A stretch of DNA of 64,000 bases. Origin: Geodermatophilus telluris (GTDB taxonomy: Bacteria > Actinomycetota > Actinomycetes > Mycobacteriales > Geodermatophilaceae). The translations under genes were made by a program, and so were the position numbers. The notes under the pieces were generated by a model. It ran no database searches. It had not been told where the DNA came from and saw only the letters and a program-made list of their open reading frames with translations. The stretch covers positions 992,001 through 1,056,000 of the forward strand of contig NZ_FMZF01000001.1 in NCBI RefSeq assembly GCF_900102745.1, read 5' to 3'. This document shows positions 44,839 through 53,062 of this stretch, in pieces (position 1 is the stretch's first letter; each line of letters opens with the position of its first letter).

Positions 44839-46011
44839 CTAGCGGAGCTCCCGCGGGTCCGGCCGGGCCCCGGCGACCGGCCGCGACGCCAGCAGCACGG
44901 CTCCGCCGGCCGCCAGCCCGGCGGCGGTCAGGAACGCCGCCGGGATCCCGCCCGCCGACGCGACGAGACCCAGGAGGAGCGGACCGCCGCCGAGCCCCAG
45001 GTCGATGAACACGCTGGCCGTCCCCGCGGCGCTGCCCCGCTGGGAGGGCGGCACCCGGCTGAACACGGCCGCGAACACCGCCGGGGTCAGGAAGGCGGTG
45101 CCCACCGCCAGCGAGGCCGTCCCCGCGAGGAGGCCCTCCGCCGACGGCACCGCGGCGACGAGGGTCAGGCCGGCGGCCGAGGCGCCGAGGGCCGCGGCGG
45201 CCAGGCGCAGCGGTGGCACGCGGTCGGGCAGGGTGGCGAACACCGTGCGGCAGACGACCACGACGAGCCCGAACAGCCCCAGCACCGTGCTCCACGCGTC
45301 CAGGCCGATCCGGGCGGCGTGCAGGGGGGCGAACGCCGTGAAGCCGCCGACAACGGCCACCCCGGCGAGCAGGCCGATCCCGGGGAGCAGCACGGCGGGG
45401 TGGAGCAGCGGCGGTGCGGCGGACGGCCCGGACACCGGCTCCAGGGTCTCCGGCACCCGGGCGGCGAGCAGCGCGGCGACGGCCAGCAGCACCGCGCCGC
45501 CCGCCCAGACGGCCGCGAAGCCACCCGAGCCGAGCAGCGCCTGACCGACGACAGGCCCGACGGCGATCCCGACGTAGAGGGCCAGCGAGTTGTAGCTGAG
45601 CGCCTCACCGGCCCGGCCGGCCGGCGCCAGGTCGGCCAGGGCCGCGAAGCCGGCGACGACGTACAGCGCCTCCGCCGCCCCCAGCAGCAGGCGCAGCACC
45701 ACCAGCCAGGCCAGGTCGGTCACCAGCAGGTGACCGAGCACCAGCACGGCGAGCAGCGAGGCGCCGCCGACCAGCAGCGGTCGGCGGCCGTGGCGGTCGG
45801 CCCACCGGCCGGCCAGCGGACGCAGGACCAGGGTCGTCACGCCGGACGCGCCGACGGCGACGCCGACCGCGGCCGGCCCCCCGTCCAGCGGCCCCGTCAC
45901 GAAGAAGGGGGTCACCCCGAGCAGCGCGCCCGTGGCGGTGCAGTAGGCCAGGTCGGACACGGTCAGCGCGACGAACGCCGGCGTGAACAGCGTGTCCGGC
46001 CGGCGCCGCAT
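44839..46011 (-). CDS. Major facilitator superfamily transporter
   Basis: A 390-residue transporter with about 12 membrane segments. MFS motif A reads GRWADRHGRRPLLVGG between helices 2 and 3. The opening TLFTPAFVALTVSDLAYCTATGALLGVTPFFV and the GEALSYNSLALYVGIAVGPVVG segment resemble drug/metabolite efflux proteins. ATG at 46011. It lies 46 bases downstream of the proW-like gene on the same strand and may be the last gene of that transcription unit, but a direct link is not evident. Confidence 0.88.
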   Translation of the reverse strand: MRRRPDTLFTPAFVALTVSDLAYCTATGALLGVTPFFVTGPLDGGPAAVGVAVGASGVTTLVLRPLAGRWADRHGRRPLLVGGASLLAVLVLGHLLVTDLAWLVVLRLLLGAAEALYVVAGFAALADLAPAGRAGEALSYNSLALYVGIAVGPVVGQALLGSGGFAAVWAGGAVLLAVAALLAARVPETLEPVSGPSAAPPLLHPAVLLPGIGLLAGVAVVGGFTAFAPLHAARIGLDAWSTVLGLFGLVVVVCRTVFATLPDRVPPLRLAAAALGASAAGLTLVAAVPSAEGLLAGTASLAVGTAFLTPAVFAAVFSRVPPSQRGSAAGTASVFIDLGLGGGPLLLGLVASAGGIPAAFLTAAGLAAGGAVLLASRPVAGARPDPRELR

Positions 46012-46057: not shown

Positions 46058-46984
46058 TCAGCCGGGCTGCTGCGCGCCGACCGCCGACGGGCGGACCGCG
46101 GTGTCCGCGGCCGGTGCGCTGCGCTGCCGGCCGGCCCGCGCCTGACGGAACCGGGACAGCACCGACCGCTGCCCGAAGGCGCCGGTCAGGCGGTCGAGGA
46201 AGACCGCGAGCAGGACGACGGCCAGCCCGCCCTCGAAGCCGCTGGCGACGTCGAGCTGGGTGACGGCGCGGACGACGACCGCGCCGAGCCCCGCGGCGCC
46301 GAGCAGGCCGGCCGTGACCACCATCGACAGCGCCAGCATGATCACCTGGTTGACGCCGGCCATGATCGCCGGCAGCGCCAGCGGCAGCTGCACCTCGCGC
46401 AGCACCTGACCGGGCCGGGCGCCGAAGGCCTGCGCGGCCTCGACCACCTCGCGGTCCACCTGGCGGATGCCCAGCTCGGTGAGCCGGACCCCGGGCGGGA
46501 TGGCGAACAGGATCGTCGCCACGACGCCGGGCACGACGCCCACGCCGAAGAAGAAGACGGCGGGGATCAGGTAGACGAACACCGGCGTGGTCTGCATCGA
46601 GTCCAGCACCGGCCGGACCGCGACGCTGACCGCCCGGTGCCGCGCCGCCAGGATGCCGAGCGGGACGGCGATCGCCGCGGCGATCACCGCGGCCACGAGC
46701 ACCAGCGCCAGCGTCTGCATCGTCTCGACCCAGAGCTCGAGCGACACCACCAGCAGGAACGCCAGCAGCGCGTAGAGCGCCAGCCACGGGCCGCGCAGCA
46801 GCAGCGCCAGCACGGTGAAGACCACGATCCAGACCACCGGCGGCGGGGAGACCAGCGCGTCGGTCAGCCCGTCGACGAGGACCTGCATGACCGCGGAGAT
46901 CGCGTCGAACAGCCAGGGCACCGCGGCGAGCAGCCAGTCGATGAGGTCGGCGACCCACTGGCCGAGCGGGAGGTGCGGGATCAC
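46058..46984 (-). CDS. proW: Glycine betaine/proline-type ABC permease
   Basis: A 308-residue membrane permease with about seven helices. The coupling loop EAAQAFGARPGQVLREVQLPLALPAIMAGVNQVIMLALSM is the ProW/OpuAB signature. GTG at 46984 overlaps the ATPase stop by 4 bases, showing translational coupling. With the ATPase and lipoprotein it forms an osmoprotectant importer; choline or carnitine are alternative substrates. Confidence 0.9.
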   Translation of the reverse strand: MIPHLPLGQWVADLIDWLLAAVPWLFDAISAVMQVLVDGLTDALVSPPPVVWIVVFTVLALLLRGPWLALYALLAFLLVVSLELWVETMQTLALVLVAAVIAAAIAVPLGILAARHRAVSVAVRPVLDSMQTTPVFVYLIPAVFFFGVGVVPGVVATILFAIPPGVRLTELGIRQVDREVVEAAQAFGARPGQVLREVQLPLALPAIMAGVNQVIMLALSMVVTAGLLGAAGLGAVVVRAVTQLDVASGFEGGLAVVLLAVFLDRLTGAFGQRSVLSRFRQARAGRQRSAPAADTAVRPSAVGAQQPG

Positions 46985-48189
46985 GGGCGCCTCCCCCGGA
47001 CCGGGACGGCCGACAGCGCGTCGAGCACCGCCGCCCGCGGGACGACGCCGAGCAGCCGCCCGTCGCCGTCGAGGACGCCGAGCGGCACCGGGTGCCGGCC
47101 GACGAGGTGCACGAACTCCACGACCGGCCGGTCGGCCCCGGTCGTGGCGAAGTCGGCGACCAGCTCGTACGGGCCGATCGCCGTCCGGCCCTCCTGCACC
47201 GCCCGGGCGAGCAGGTCGTCGCGGGCCACGCCGGCGACGCGCCGCTCGCCGTCGAGCACGTAGACGCCGTTGGCCTCCGCCCCGCCCAGCGCCCGGAGCA
47301 CGTCCCCGGGCCGGTCACCGACCCGGGCGGTCAGCCGGGGCTCGCGCAGCAGGTCACCGGCGGTGAGCACCCGGGTCCGGTCGACGTCGGAGGTGAAGTC
47401 GGCGACGTAGTCGTCGGCGGGCGCGGAGATGATCTCCGGGCCGGTGCCCAGCTGCACGGTGCGGCCGTCCTTGAGCATGAGGATCCGGTCGCCCAGCCGC
47501 ATGGCCTCGTTGAGGTCGTGGGTGATGAACACGATCGTCTTGGCCAGGTCCGACTGCAGCCGCTCCAGCAGGTCCTGCATGTCGCGGCGGATGAGCGGGT
47601 CGAGCGCGGAGAACGGCTCGTCCATCAGCAGCACCTCGGAGTCCGCGGCCAGCGCGCGGGCCAGGCCCACGCGCTGGCGCATGCCCCCGGAGAGCTCGTC
47701 GGGCCGGGCGCCGGCCCGGTCGATGAGCCCCACCGTCTCCAGTGCCCAGTCCGCCCGCTGCCGCTGCTCGGCGGCGGGGGCGCCGCGGACCTTGAGCGCG
47801 TACGCGGCGTTCTCGCGCACCGTGCGGTGCGGGAGCAGCGCGAAGTGCTGGAAGACCATGCTGATCTTCTGGTTGCGCACCGTCCGCAGCGCGGCGTCGT
47901 CGAGCGCCCGCAGGTCGCGGCCGTCGACCTCGACGGTGCCGGCGCTCGGCTCGATGAGCCGGTTGAGCAGCCGGACCAGCGTGGACTTGCCCGATCCCGA
48001 CAGGCCCATGACGACGAACAGCTCCCCGCGCTCGACGGCGAAGTCGACGTCGTGGACCGCGAGCGTGGCCCCGGTCCGGCGCAGGATCTCGTCGCGCCCG
48101 TGGCCGTCGGCGGCCAGCCGCAGCGCCTCCTGCTCCCGCGCGCCGAAGACCTTCGTCAGGCCCGTGACGCGCAGCACCGGCGGCGCCAC
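46981..48189 (-). CDS. proV: Glycine betaine/proline-type ABC ATPase with CBS domains
   Basis: A 402-residue ATPase of the ProV/OpuAA group. Walker A GLSGSGKST is at residues 62-70, Q-loop VFQHFALLPHRTVRENAAY, signature LSGGMRQRVGLARALA, Walker B VLLMDEPFSALDP and switch FITHD. The family insertion before Walker A (ALRLAADGHGRDEILRRTGATLAVHDV) is present. A C-terminal CBS pair (about 285-402) would sense ionic strength, the osmotic trigger in OpuA. GTG at 48189 begins 2 bases after the binding-protein stop. Confidence 0.92.
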   Translation of the reverse strand: MAPPVLRVTGLTKVFGAREQEALRLAADGHGRDEILRRTGATLAVHDVDFAVERGELFVVMGLSGSGKSTLVRLLNRLIEPSAGTVEVDGRDLRALDDAALRTVRNQKISMVFQHFALLPHRTVRENAAYALKVRGAPAAEQRQRADWALETVGLIDRAGARPDELSGGMRQRVGLARALAADSEVLLMDEPFSALDPLIRRDMQDLLERLQSDLAKTIVFITHDLNEAMRLGDRILMLKDGRTVQLGTGPEIISAPADDYVADFTSDVDRTRVLTAGDLLREPRLTARVGDRPGDVLRALGGAEANGVYVLDGERRVAGVARDDLLARAVQEGRTAIGPYELVADFATTGADRPVVEFVHLVGRHPVPLGVLDGDGRLLGVVPRAAVLDALSAVPVRGRRP

Positions 48190-48191
48190 CG

Positions 48192-49157
48192 TCAGCCGAT
48201 CCACTCGTCGATCTGGTCGCCGTGGGCGTCGACCCACTCGCGCGCCACGGTGGCGACGTCCTCGCCGTCGACGTCGACCGCCTTCTGCATCTCCTCCATC
48301 TCCTCGACGGAGATGCGGAAGTCCGTCAGCAGGTCGACGAAGCCCGGGGCCTGCTCGGCGAGCTCGTCGCTGGCGGCGATGTTGGCGCTGTAGGAGGGCA
48401 TCGCGCAGGCGCCGTCCCCCTCGGTCAGGCAGCCGTCGGTGTAGGGCGTGGGCTCCTCGAGCTGGACCATGTCGTACTGCGCGAACACCGCGTGCGGGTG
48501 GTAGAGGTACAGCACGATCGGCTCCTCGCGGCTGTAGCTGTTCTCCAGCTGCGCCAGCTCGGCCGCCTCGCTGGACACCACGTGCTCGAGGCCGATGCCG
48601 TACCCCTGCAGCCGCTTGGCGTTCTGCTCGGTGGTGATGTAGCCGGGGTCGGCGTCGTAGAACTTGTTCCCCAGCTCGTCGGCGTAGTCGTTGAGCTGGG
48701 TGACGCTGGTCAGCCCCTCCAGCGGCCCGCCGGGCTCGACGGCGTAGGCCGGCACGAACCAGCCCTGCGCGGCGTCGCCGTACGTCTCCGACACGATCTG
48801 CACCCGGTCGCTCGCCGAGTCCGCCAGCTCCTGCTGGTTGGGCAGGGCGACCTCGGTGAGCAGGTCGACGTCCCCGCGCTGCGCCCCGGCCCAGGCCGCG
48901 GCCGGGTCCAGCTGCGTGGTGGCCAGGGAGGACACGCCCAGGTCGGGGTGGTCGGCGGCGATCTCGCCGAGGATGCCGTTGGTCAGCCCCGCCGCGGTCC
49001 AGCTGAACTGCGCCGCCTGCACGGTGATGCCGTCACCGCTGCCGCCGCTGCCGCCGCCCGACCCGGCCTCCTCGCTGGTGCACCCGGCGACGGTGGCGGT
49101 GAGCAGGGCGGTCAGGGCCACCGCGGACGCGCGGGGCCGGAGGGGGGTGCGCTGCAT
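48192..49157 (-). CDS. proX: Glycine betaine-binding lipoprotein
   Basis: A 321-residue substrate-binding protein with signal peptide and lipobox TVAGC (Cys26), followed by a Gly/Ser linker. The mature domain is of the OpuAC type: ITVQAAQFSWTAAGLTNGILGEIAAD, then DVDLLTEVALPNQQELAD and PIVLYLYHPHAVFAQYDMVQLEEP, rich in the Trp/Tyr residues that cage quaternary amines. First gene of the proX-proV-proW unit. ATG at 49157. Ligand identity (betaine, proline betaine, choline) is not resolved. Confidence 0.88.
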   Translation of the reverse strand: MQRTPLRPRASAVALTALLTATVAGCTSEEAGSGGGSGGSGDGITVQAAQFSWTAAGLTNGILGEIAADHPDLGVSSLATTQLDPAAAWAGAQRGDVDLLTEVALPNQQELADSASDRVQIVSETYGDAAQGWFVPAYAVEPGGPLEGLTSVTQLNDYADELGNKFYDADPGYITTEQNAKRLQGYGIGLEHVVSSEAAELAQLENSYSREEPIVLYLYHPHAVFAQYDMVQLEEPTPYTDGCLTEGDGACAMPSYSANIAASDELAEQAPGFVDLLTDFRISVEEMEEMQKAVDVDGEDVATVAREWVDAHGDQIDEWIG

Positions 49158-49272: not shown

Positions 49273-49318
49273 CGGTCGGGCCGGCGGCCCGCGGGTCAGC
49301 GGGCCGCCGGCCCGACCG
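49273..49318 (-). terminator. Large hairpin with TauD stop codon in its loop
   Basis: A perfect 20-bp stem (49273-49292 with 49299-49318) and 6-base loop. The TGA of the TauD-like gene (49296-49298) lies in the loop, so half the stem is coding sequence for the protein C-terminus. Confidence 0.65.
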
Positions 49319-50189
49319 GTGCATCCCCGCGGAGGGTGATGCGGTGCATGACGCGGCGCTGGTCGCCATAGTCCCGGTTGGCGTAGTGCACCGTCGAGCG
49401 GTTGTCCCACATGACGACGTCACCGACCGACCAGCGGTGCCGCACGATGTGCTCCGGCTTGGTGATGTGCGCGTAGAACAGGTCCAGCAGGTACCGGCTC
49501 TCGGCGTCGGACACGCCCTCGATGTGGGAGACGAAGCCGGGGTTGACGAACAGGCCCTTGCGGCCGGTCTCCGGGTGCACGCGCACGACGGGGTGCGCCA
49601 CCGGGACCAGGGCGCGGAACTCCTCGCCCTCCCACTTCGTCCGCTCCTCGCGCTGGGCGAGGTAGTAGCCGAACTCCCGGGTGCCGTCGTGCACCGCGAC
49701 GAGCTGGTCGGCCAGGCGCTGCACGGGCTCGCTCAGCGAGCGGTAGGCCAGCTCCAGGTCGGCCCACTGGGTGTCCCCGCCGGTGGGCGGGAGGACGACG
49801 GCCCGCAGCACCGACCCGAGCGGGGGCCGGCGCACGAAGGTGACGTCGGTGTGCCAGACGTCGGCGAAGCCGCCGGTGGCGCTGTCGAGGGCGTAGATCT
49901 CCGGGTGCTGGTCGTCGACGCCGGGGACGACGGGGTGCGACTCGGTGACCTCGCCGAGGCGGCGGCCGAGCGCGATCTGGCTGTCCGGGTGCAGGTCGTG
50001 CTGCTCGGAGAAGAACAGCACCTTGTACTCGGCGAGGGCGGCGCGGACGGCGCGGACCTGGTCGTCGGTGGCGCGGCTGAGGTCGACGCCGTGGACGCGG
50101 GCACCGATGGTCGGCTCGAGGCGCTCGAGGTCGAGGGCCCCGGCGTCGTCGTCGGCGGGCGTGGTCGGGGCAGCGGCGAGCAGGGTCAT
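49296..50189 (-). CDS. TauD/TfdA family 2-oxoglutarate-dependent dioxygenase
   Basis: A 297-residue Fe(II)/2-oxoglutarate dioxygenase. The facial triad is visible: His113 and Asp115 in VWHTDVTF and distal His282 in VMHRITLRG, whose arginines bind 2-oxoglutarate. Other family segments are GARVHGVDLSR, FFSEQHDLHPDSQIALGRRLGE and VMWDNRSTVHYANRDYGDQRR. Members release sulfite from taurine or alkylsulfonates, or cleave herbicide ethers. A Cys-containing leader peptide upstream points to sulfur control, so sulfonate oxidation is the best guess. ATG at 50189 with a GGAG site. Confidence 0.9.
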   Translation of the reverse strand: MTLLAAAPTTPADDDAGALDLERLEPTIGARVHGVDLSRATDDQVRAVRAALAEYKVLFFSEQHDLHPDSQIALGRRLGEVTESHPVVPGVDDQHPEIYALDSATGGFADVWHTDVTFVRRPPLGSVLRAVVLPPTGGDTQWADLELAYRSLSEPVQRLADQLVAVHDGTREFGYYLAQREERTKWEGEEFRALVPVAHPVVRVHPETGRKGLFVNPGFVSHIEGVSDAESRYLLDLFYAHITKPEHIVRHRWSVGDVVMWDNRSTVHYANRDYGDQRRVMHRITLRGDAPVGPAAR

Positions 50190-50236
50190 GCGAGGTCTCC
50201 GGAGGTGGGTGCGGGCAGGCGGGACGGGGCGGGGGG

Positions 50237-50326
50237 TCAGGCCCGACAGAGCGCGCTCGCGCACCGCAGCAGGTCGACGTGCCGGCGCTCGACGAGCGCA
50301 AAGCACACAAACCCGACCAAGTGCAT
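50237..50326 (-). CDS. Short Cys-containing leader peptide (attenuator) of TauD gene
   Basis: A 29-residue reading frame starting ATG at 50326 and stopping 47 bases before the TauD-like start codon. Its C-terminal part, ERRHVDLLRCASALCRA, matches the RRHVDLLR...SALC pattern of short leader peptides found ahead of sulfur-assimilation genes in actinobacteria (recalled from the family; not searched here). Cysteine codons near the end would let ribosomes stall when cysteine is scarce, changing expression of the downstream gene. A -10-like TACGGT (50334-50339, minus strand) ends 7 bases before its ATG, so the transcript would start at or next to the leader ATG. Confidence 0.75.
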   Translation of the reverse strand: MHLVGFVCFALVERRHVDLLRCASALCRA

Positions 50327-50333
50327 GCGGATT

Positions 50334-50339
50334 ACCGTA
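50334..50339 (-). promoter_or_regulatory. -10 element for leader peptide and TauD gene
   Basis: On the minus strand TACGGT ends 7 bases before the leader ATG (50326), placing the transcription start at or next to that codon. No -35 is evident. Confidence 0.4.
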
Positions 50340-50548
50340 GCGGGTGCTCCGCCTCCCGGGACAGGGGGTCCCGGCCGCCCGCCGTCCTCCCTGCGGGTGA
50401 CGCGCGCGGCGCCCGGGGACCGGTCGGCGGCCCGACCTGCCGAGACAGGAGGGGTCGGTCCGGACGGGAGGGGTGCGTGGTGGCGCAGTCGGGCGTGCGG
50501 GTCGCGACCCTGTCGCGGCGGCGCGGGCCTGTGGCACCGTCTGAACCC

Positions 50549-53062
50549 ATGTCGCGCCCGGCCGGGGACCAGACGCTGGGCGACCTGGCGCGCTCGGTCC
50601 GGGTGGTCGGGCCGGACACCCCCGTCGCCACCGTGGAGGCGCTGCTGCTGCGCCGTCCGGCGGGCACGCCGTGGCTGGTCGTGCAGGGCACGGACGGCCC
50701 GGTGCTCCTGGGCCGCGGCTGGCTGGAGGCGATGCGGGCCGGGACCGGCAGTGACGGCGTCCCGCCGGCCGGCTCCCGCCCCGTCGCGGAGGTGGCGCCG
50801 CGGGGCACGCTCGTCGTCCCCGCCGGCTCCACCGTCGGCGAGGCCGCGGCCCTGCTGGCGGAGCGGCGGCGCAGCGGGGAGGACGTGCCCGAGGCGATCG
50901 TCGTGGTCTGCGCCGAGGACGTCGGCGTCGTCCCGGTCGCCACGCTGTTCGAGCAGCTCGCGCACCACTACGCGTACCGCGCCGTGCACGACCCGCTCAC
51001 CGGCCTGCCCAACCGGCTCTTCCTCGAGGACCAGGTGCAGCCCCCCGGCGGCTTCCGGCCCGGGGCGCTGTTCTTCGTCGACCTCGACCGCTTCAAGGAC
51101 GTCAACGACCACTTCGGCCACGCCGCCGGCGACGAGGTGCTGGCCCAGTTCGCCCGGCGGCTGCGCTCGCTGGCGCGGTCGGGCGACCTGGTGGCCCGGC
51201 TCAGCGGCGACGAGTTCGTCCTGGTCACCGCCGACCGGCTCGGCCGGGACGAGGCCGACGCGCTGGCGCAGCGCATCCTGCTCGCCGCCGACGCACCGGT
51301 GGTCGTGCGCGGCGCGAACGGCAGCGAGGAGCTGGTCGCCATCGGTGCCAGCGTGGGAATCGCGCAGGCCCCGGCCGGGGAGGGCCCCGCGGGACCGGAC
51401 GCGCTCGACCGGCTCGTCACCGAGGCCGACACGGCGATGTACCGGGCCAAGACCCTCGGCCGCGGCCGCTGGGCGCACTTCGCGCCCGAGCTGCTCGAGG
51501 ACCGCGAGCACGGCGACGTGGTGCGGGCGCGGCACCTGCTGGAGCGCCGGCTGCGGGCGGCGGTGGACCGCGGCGGGCTCAGCGTGCAGTACCAGCCCGT
51601 GGTCGCGCTGCCCTCCGGCCGGACCACCGGCGTCGAGGCGCTGGCCCGCTGGCACGACGAGGAGCTGGGCTGGGTCGCCCCCGACCGGTTCGTCCCGCTC
51701 GCCGAGGACACCGGCCTGATCGTCGACCTCGGCCGGTGGGTGCTGCGCACCGCCTGCCGGGAGGCGGCGGGCTGGCCGGTCCCGCCGTCCGGGCCGGCCC
51801 CGACCGTGGCGGTCAACGTGTCCCCGGTGCAGCTGGTGCAGCGCGGCTTCGTCGACGAGGTCGTGGCGGCCCTGGCCGAGTCCGGGCTGGCGCCCGACCG
51901 GCTGTGCCTGGAGATCACCGAGACCGCGGCCATCACCGACCTGGCGGCCACCGCGGCGCGGCTCGAGGAGCTCCGCGGGCTGGGCGTGCGGCTGGCCCTC
52001 GACGACTTCGGCGCCGGCCACTCGGCGCTGTCCCTGCTGCGGCACCTGCCGGTGGACCTGGTGAAGATCGACCGGTCGTTCGTCGAGCGGGTCACCACCG
52101 ACACCGCCGACGCCGTCCTGGTGCGCCTGGTCGTCGAGGCGGCGCACGGGCTCGGCCGCAAGGTGTGCGCGGAGGGCGTGGAGACGCCGGAGCAGGCGCG
52201 GCAGCTGGTCGCGCTGGGCTGCGACTCCGCGCAGGGCTGGCTGTTCGGCCGCCCGGCCGACGTCCCCGCTCTCGCCGCCCGGCCCGGCACGGTGGGGACG
52301 GACGAGGTGTCCGGCCCGGCACCGCTGCCCCTGGCCGGCAGCGACGAGGTGGTCGTCGTCTCCACCCCCGGCCGCGTCATCACCTACGCGTCGGCCACCG
52401 CGGGCCCGGTGCTCGGGTGGCTGCCGCAGGAACTGTTGGGCGCGTCGGTGCTCACCCTGCTGCACCCCGAGGACGTCGACCGCGTGCTCACCGGGCAGCC
52501 GGTGGCGCGCGACGGCGGCGCGGAGGGCACCGTGCACCGCGCCCTGCACCGCGACGGCACCGTGCGGTGGCTGCGCACCTCGGTGCAGCGGCTGACCGAC
52601 GCGTCGGGCACGCTCCGCGAGGTCGTCACCGTGTCCCGCGACGTGACGGCGGCGGTGGCGGCCCAGGAGGCGCTGGCCGAGAGCGAGTCGATGTTCCGGC
52701 ACGCCTTCGACGACGCGCCGATCGGCATGGCCCTCACCGACCTCGACGGCCGCTTCATCCGCGTGAACAAGGCCTTCGCGGCCCTGGTGGGGCGGGCGCC
52801 GGAGGAGCTGGCGCCGATGACCGTCGCCGACGTCACCCACCCCGAGGACCTCGCCCAGGACGACGCCAACCTCACGGAGGTCCGCACCGGCGCCGTCGAC
52901 GGGCACCTGGTGACCAAGCGCTACCTGCGCGCCGACGGCACGGCCTTCCTCGCCCGCGTGCACGCCGCCGTCGTCGTGGACCGCTCGCAGCGGCCCTCGC
53001 ACGTCTTCGCCCACGTCGTCGAGCTCGGCGGCGACGTCCCCGGCGTCGCGCCGCGGGGCTGA
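50549..53062 (+). CDS. CBS-like GGDEF-EAL protein with two C-terminal PAS domains
   Basis: An 837-residue soluble c-di-GMP protein. Residues 1-135 resemble a CBS pair (SVRVVGPDTPVATVEALLLRRPAGTPWLVVQ). The GGDEF domain has HDPLTGLPNRLFLEDQV and LVARLSGDEFVLVT (SGDEF, a variant active in known cyclases). The EAL domain has VEALARW, NVSPVQL, EITETA, DDFGAGHSAL, KIDRSFV, AEGVETPEQ and QGWLFGRP. Two PAS domains follow (about 600-710 and 715-830; MFRHAFDDAPIGMALTDLDGRF). Sensors after the output domains reverse the usual order. ATG at 50549 with the frame open upstream; divergent from the TauD leader. Confidence 0.88.
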   Translation: MSRPAGDQTLGDLARSVRVVGPDTPVATVEALLLRRPAGTPWLVVQGTDGPVLLGRGWLEAMRAGTGSDGVPPAGSRPVAEVAPRGTLVVPAGSTVGEAAALLAERRRSGEDVPEAIVVVCAEDVGVVPVATLFEQLAHHYAYRAVHDPLTGLPNRLFLEDQVQPPGGFRPGALFFVDLDRFKDVNDHFGHAAGDEVLAQFARRLRSLARSGDLVARLSGDEFVLVTADRLGRDEADALAQRILLAADAPVVVRGANGSEELVAIGASVGIAQAPAGEGPAGPDALDRLVTEADTAMYRAKTLGRGRWAHFAPELLEDREHGDVVRARHLLERRLRAAVDRGGLSVQYQPVVALPSGRTTGVEALARWHDEELGWVAPDRFVPLAEDTGLIVDLGRWVLRTACREAAGWPVPPSGPAPTVAVNVSPVQLVQRGFVDEVVAALAESGLAPDRLCLEITETAAITDLAATAARLEELRGLGVRLALDDFGAGHSALSLLRHLPVDLVKIDRSFVERVTTDTADAVLVRLVVEAAHGLGRKVCAEGVETPEQARQLVALGCDSAQGWLFGRPADVPALAARPGTVGTDEVSGPAPLPLAGSDEVVVVSTPGRVITYASATAGPVLGWLPQELLGASVLTLLHPEDVDRVLTGQPVARDGGAEGTVHRALHRDGTVRWLRTSVQRLTDASGTLREVVTVSRDVTAAVAAQEALAESESMFRHAFDDAPIGMALTDLDGRFIRVNKAFAALVGRAPEELAPMTVADVTHPEDLAQDDANLTEVRTGAVDGHLVTKRYLRADGTAFLARVHAAVVVDRSQRPSHVFAHVVELGGDVPGVAPRG

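Follow-up and report, generated by a model that had tools for sequence, protein, structure and literature searches.

Cysteine-rich leaderless uORFs have been described in mycobacteria (PMC4633059), and these mycobacterial leaderless cysteine leaders are cysteine-responsive, according to the account of Canestrari 2020 given in PMC9031893; Rho has been proposed to act at mycobacterial cys leaders (PMC1262725). In the TnaC leader peptide, Trp12, Asp16 and Pro24 are the key residues, and the stalled TnaC ribosome blocks the Rho site (PMC8429421). The locus reported here, from Geodermatophilus telluris, carries a short leader ORF ahead of a gene for a TauD-like dioxygenase. The leader, the dioxygenase gene and a −10-like hexamer all lie on the minus strand of the 64-kb window, as the whole stretch of DNA that was analysed is called below, and the features of the locus are the following:

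50334..50339, minus strand: −10-like hexamer TACGGT (fits TANNNT), 7 nt 5′ of the leader ATG; TANNNT is kept in 18 Geodermatophilaceae-type loci
50237..50326, minus strand: leader peptide ORF MHLVGFVCFALVERRHVDLLRCASALCRA, ATG start, 29 codons; 32.6 bits to NF042934, kept in 18/18 loci
50261..50263, minus strand: Cys22 codon TGC (position +4, not the invariant Cys); TGC in 18/18
50246..50248, minus strand: Cys27 codon TGT, corresponding to the family's invariant UGU, two codons 5′ of the stop; TGT in 18/18 TauD leaders
50239..50237, minus strand: leader stop codon TGA
50190..50236, minus strand: C-rich, G-poor spacer from the leader stop to the tauD start, candidate Rho loading tract
50200..50197, minus strand: GGAG ribosome-binding site inside the spacer
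49296..50189, minus strand: TauD/TfdA-family Fe(II)/2-oxoglutarate dioxygenase, 297 aa (Pfam PF02668, E 3.3e-64)
48192..49157, minus strand: OpuAC/ProX-type substrate-binding protein (Pfam PF04069; TIGR03414 below cut-off)
46981..48237, minus strand: ProV/ChoV-type ABC ATPase (TIGR01186, 373.5 bits, above cut-off)
46058..46984, minus strand: ProW/ChoW-type permease (Pfam PF00528; TIGR03416, 318 bits, below cut-off)

The start codon of the dioxygenase gene occupies 50189..50187, so the gap to the leader is exactly 47 nt. A preliminary description of this DNA had proposed a 29-codon frame 47 bases ahead of the dioxygenase, for which it gave no strand, and this frame was recovered at 50326..50237 on the minus strand, ahead of 50189; the span that it had assigned, 50190-50339, covers the −10-like hexamer, the leader ORF and the gap. 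Its claim of a −10 placed for leaderless translation is supported as well; a leaderless start is predicted from the position of TACGGT 7 nt ahead of the leader ATG, and class-wide such a placement was found for 69 of 153 leaders vs 4 of 306 control frames. The leader contains Cys8, Cys22 and Cys27 as its only Cys residues, with no contiguous Cys codons.

An MFS transporter gene (44839-46011, minus strand) adjoins the operon; no homolog of it was found behind the permease gene among the relatives examined, and it probably lies outside the operon. The listed start of a long divergent ORF (50279-53062, plus strand), GGDEF/EAL-like by eye, overlaps the leader on the opposite strand, and the true start of this ORF is probably further downstream than listed.

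The leader matched the NCBIfam model NF042934 (‘putative leader peptide’) over residues 10-27 with an E value of 4.1e-08, its score lying above the curated cut-off of 27 bits, and a partial match to NF042936 (Ms4527A family Cys-rich leader) reached 22.8 bits, below the cut-off of 45. Matches to NF042934 were detected in 56 of 61 relatives and in 199 of 297 genomes of the class, and none in 14 control genomes; the genome of the window holds five at E <= 0.001, four of them above cut-off. The actinobacterial leader family that the preliminary description placed ahead of sulfur genes is a real one. A literature text search on the names and motif of the family returned nothing relevant. The leader and the −10 element are kept in each of the 18 distinct TauD loci of the Geodermatophilaceae type that have upstream DNA, and synonymous divergence is lower in the leader (0.116) than in tauD (0.324). 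Given the NF042934 score, the empty control genomes and this conservation, the leader ORF is not a chance frame. The leader at the tauD locus is a member of the actinobacterial NF042934 family, a kind already known, and in the explanation that we consider probable as a whole its translation would be leaderless.

The order leader-tauD-OpuAC-ProV-ProW is common to most Geodermatophilaceae-type relatives, and NF042934-family leaders of their own also precede tauD in Pseudonocardia, several Rhodococcus and Antrihabitans. Most TauD orthologs from genomes other than those of Geodermatophilaceae, Pseudonocardia and the Rhodococcus type lack a leader immediately ahead, a point against the overall explanation given below. 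In Nonomuraea, Micromonospora-type genomes, Streptomyces and Gordonia, tauD mostly closes an operon that runs permease / binding protein / ATPase / tauD, and in a few such operons a leader lies near the operon head (loci L025 and L078). The importer genes tested in examples from Nonomuraea, Gordonia and Streptomyces had TauA, TauB and TauC as their best NCBIfam matches, below the cut-offs. Variant leaders with VDH replacing VDL were seen at two loci (L163 and L165), about 150-340 nt ahead of more distant tauD genes.

In a class-wide survey of 163 loci, 173 leaders were collected and the first genes that follow them were grouped, with heuristic and in part rough gene calls and with groups named by the Pfam matches of their representatives. 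By our count, at least 143 of the 173 leaders (~83%) precede a clear sulfur gene, in agreement with the preliminary description. The first genes encode rhodanese (35), sulfite reductase (29), DUF4395 (22), cysteine dioxygenase (20), a cysteine-synthase-type PLP enzyme (9), PAPS reductase (7), family-5 binding proteins (6), ThiS/CysO (4), APS kinase, NMT1-type binding proteins and sulfatase (3 each), and CbiX and TauD (2 each, one of the latter being the tauD of the window); single cases include serine acetyltransferase, TauE and a siroheme-synthase-like enzyme, and sulfonate-type binding proteins are also among the products. Four of the five leaders in the genome of the window clearly precede sulfur genes, the paralogs standing ahead of DUF4395 followed by a sulfurtransferase, of a cysteine-dioxygenase-family gene followed by a rhodanese, and of TauE/SafE.

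Some of these targets deserve separate mention. A leader of the family in the genome of the window, ALSRRRHIDLRRTSSALCPAR (locus L001, contig C5), lies ahead of an FAD-NAD(P)-binding protein (PF13454), for which we know of no sulfur role, and is among the few with UGC at the invariant Cys. Leaders ahead of cysteine-dioxygenase-family genes were found at L003 and at the loci of cluster 3 (e.g. L108, L195 and L247), most of them with a distinct motif, RLWRRVHMDLVRYAGCVCRPSC. Cysteine dioxygenase nominally degrades cysteine, the opposite of what a starvation response would call for; as such a nominally catabolic gene is also found under these leaders, the direction of control may differ between targets. 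At L268 and L269 a family leader precedes the alpha subunit of a 2-oxoacid:ferredoxin oxidoreductase, a possible iron-sulfur link.

When the codons of the leaders were compared, the invariant Cys, nine residues after the Asp, was encoded by UGU in 148 of 151 distinct class-wide leaders, compared with a background of ~9% UGU among the Cys codons of the genes behind the leaders; the leaders come from related genomes, so that these counts are not independent events, and they span ~30 groups of downstream genes. In a separate set of TauD loci, with many close relatives among them, the codon was UGU in 42 of 42 leaders. As the matches were picked by protein profile only, codon choice was free of selection in the sampling. 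Other Cys codons of the same leaders, from the motif to +8, follow the background (61 UGC and 3 UGU at +2; 52 UGC and 8 UGU at +7), those at +10 and +11 are mixed, and farther on usage moves back toward the background. The departure in codon use amounts to 3.34 bits at the invariant Cys; the Ser at +6 (AGC) follows with 1.26, and all other positions stay below 1. Among 153 class-wide leaders, the base that follows the UGU, at codon +10, is C in 123, T in 21, A in 8 and G in just 1. UGU as a general feature of gene ends was considered and rejected, as the final 12 codons of ordinary genes contain 51 Cys codons of which 4 are UGU. Avoidance of RNA structure was rejected too, as a swap to C has a smaller stabilising effect at +9 than at +2 or +7.

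The peptide itself is also constrained. Each position of the core R..(x3)..DLxR-x5-C, as defined in this analysis, is kept in 151-153 of 153 distinct leaders, with R(−4), D(0), L(+1) and R(+3) invariant in 152-153 of them, and the leader of the window carries the whole core as R14, D18, L19, R21 and C27. The invariant Arg(−4) uses five codons freely, so that selection at this position acts on the amino acid. This conservation of the peptide could be taken as the mark of a small protein with its own job, merely placed ahead of sulfur genes, but it is limited to the last ~20 residues, the ORF precedes dozens of unrelated sulfur genes in cis, and a near-absolute synonymous choice at one codon is needless for protein function, so this explanation is very improbable. 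The UGU bias together with the invariant R..(x3)..DLxR suggests that the leader is not a plain poly-Cys attenuator but stalls the ribosome at one UGU codon with the help of the nascent peptide.

The same residues could belong to a TnaC-like arrest peptide whose signal is not charged tRNA but a small molecule, either free cysteine or some other sulfur metabolite. Such a peptide would account for the invariance of R(−4), D(0), L(+1) and R(+3) while the codons of Arg(−4) vary, and for the C-rich gap downstream, and when UGU occupies the A site, R(−4) lies 12 and D(0) 8 residues ahead of the residue in the P site, which is the TnaC spacing. The match may however be a coincidence, as TnaC is non-homologous and arrests at a stop codon, and the Cys codon is also explained by a simple tRNA-charging sensor; we regard this explanation as unlikely. 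For the whole family, from Streptomyces to mycobacteria, it is conceivable, though we would not count on it, that the leaders are one codon-specified arrest peptide and not simple cysteine-codon attenuators. The nascent R..(x3)..DLxR would then predispose the ribosome to stalling at one sensor codon, which is UGU and almost never UGC; sulfur status might be sensed by way of slow wobble decoding or of the state of tRNA-Cys, and the stall would be passed on to Rho-dependent termination in a TnaC-like way.

The region between the leader and tauD was analysed for possible output steps. Self-complementary GCGCTC/GAGCGC segments within the leader would suit an attenuator of the classical type, in which hairpins compete and transcription ends at an intrinsic terminator, but no terminator-like site and no T run were detected in the gap, the leader-tauD region gave no Rfam match, and the local GCGCTC-GTC-GAGCGC hairpin was rejected because by inspection it is not kept at L158-L161; a mechanism of this type is disfavoured and hardly to be expected. 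RNAalifold predicted a long helix within the 18 leaders.

A translation attenuation mechanism, in which the ribosome-binding site of tauD would be hidden by RNA pairing as long as no ribosome is stalled on the leader, has a precedent in the cysteine genes of M. smegmatis, which have been so described (PMC13236596), and in the free RNA the GGAG is predicted to be largely base-paired, with a mean unpaired value of 0.19. When a ribosome stalled at the UGU was modelled by masking, however, the predicted GGAG accessibility of the 18 loci hardly changed (0.19 to 0.23), and the sequence of the gap is not conserved over these loci. Translation attenuation is rather unlikely in our judgement.

The gap is strongly C-rich and G-poor. 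C minus G in the spacer ranks within the top 0.02% of all minus-strand positions of the window; Geodermatophilaceae-type gaps have C 0.59 and G 0.21, with a C−G of 0.378 vs 0.056 in gaps between tandem genes (p 1e-10), and family-wide the gaps reach 0.169 vs 0.056 in control gaps (p 7e-10). A C-rich, G-poor gap would fit Rho-dependent control, and Rho-dependent termination is our candidate for the output step, at slightly less than even confidence. How a Rho site in the gap would be blocked is not obvious, as a ribosome at Cys27 would cover little past the stop codon.

The dioxygenase gave PDB matches to P. putida TauD, E. coli TauD and AtsK. When it was aligned to the E. coli enzyme, the Fe(II) ligands fell at H113, D115 and H268 and the 2-oxoglutarate ligands at T140 and R279, with residue roles as known from TauD structures. 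The sulfonate ligands H70, V102 and R270 of E. coli TauD are kept as H85, V116 and R283 and are identical in all 81 aligned orthologs. The amine side is not kept, with Y73 replaced by V88 and S158 by E172, and N95 falls opposite a gap or A109, depending on the alignment. The local importer is of the ProXVW betaine/choline type and not TauABC. As the Glu at the position of E172 is near-universal in the orthologs, whichever importer type they have, the change of importer need not mean a change of substrate. The substrate may also be a sulfate ester, since AtsK, an alkylsulfatase, has the same sulfonate-side residues. Because the orthologs elsewhere end TauABC-like operons and the sulfonate ligands are kept, the assignment as a putative sulfur-starvation sulfonate dioxygenase, made from sequence, is well supported. 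The preliminary description was right in substance, and its interpretation is supported.

Overall, a leader-controlled, cysteine-responsive organosulfur operon is the probable explanation of the locus. Cysteine supply would control four genes, the tauD-like dioxygenase followed by a betaine/choline-type ABC importer. Transcription would start at or beside the leader ATG, with the ribosome translating the leader at once; with plentiful Cys-tRNA it would reach the stop and leave, and the downstream genes would be poorly expressed. When cysteine is short, the ribosome would stall at Cys27 (UGU), aided by R..(x3)..DLxR in the exit tunnel, which would lead to more expression of tauD and the importer, and the dioxygenase would free sulfite from the imported sulfonate. 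We infer cysteine as the signal at the tauD locus and the UGU as the place of stalling; the stall at Cys27 on short charged tRNA-Cys is proposed on the basis of family membership and of the published cysteine response of the mycobacterial leaders.

On this explanation, the dioxygenase-importer operon, which otherwise has no assignment, would be assigned to the sulfur-starvation response of Geodermatophilaceae, and a search for leaders would be a cheap route to further organosulfur genes in actinobacteria. The contrast between the near-absolute UGU and the UGC used at other places in these peptides is a sharp clue to the mechanism of cysteine-responsive leaders in a large group, with mycobacteria and antibiotic producers among its members. 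Within the literature accessible to us, in which Canestrari 2020 figures through the accounts of PMC9031893 and PMC13236596, no description was found of the position-specific UGU bias or of an operon of TauD and a betaine-type importer under such a leader.

When compared with the known systems, the dioxygenase shares with the TauD of E. coli and P. putida and with Pseudomonas AtsK the Fe and 2-oxoglutarate ligands and the His/Val/Arg sulfonate side, and differs from E. coli TauD in the two replaced residues of the amine side. The cysS leader uORFC-8-2 of Rhodobacterales (PMC8632094) is also a leader ORF with Cys codons near its end, but it differs in the dominance of UGC, in having an intrinsic terminator and in its conserved stems. 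With TnaC of E. coli the leader shares a C-rich region after the stop, proposed in the window as a Rho site, and its R(−4)/D(0)/P-site spacing equals that of Trp12/Asp16/Pro24, which is a parallel and not homology, as no sequence homology is seen by inspection and the arrest of TnaC is brought about by free tryptophan. The polycysteine sORFs of Canestrari 2020 have contiguous Cys codons, in the accounts accessible to us, whereas Cys8, Cys22 and Cys27 stand apart in the leader of the window; as far as the same accounts describe them, the mycobacterial leaderless Cys sORF attenuators share with it the leaderless start, Cys near the C-terminus, sulfur genes downstream and the lack of an intrinsic terminator. 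With the NF042934 leaders, classed as cis_reg_atten under a model that itself names no mechanism, nothing excludes membership, and the leader of the window has their C-terminal motif, a similar size and a sulfur gene downstream.
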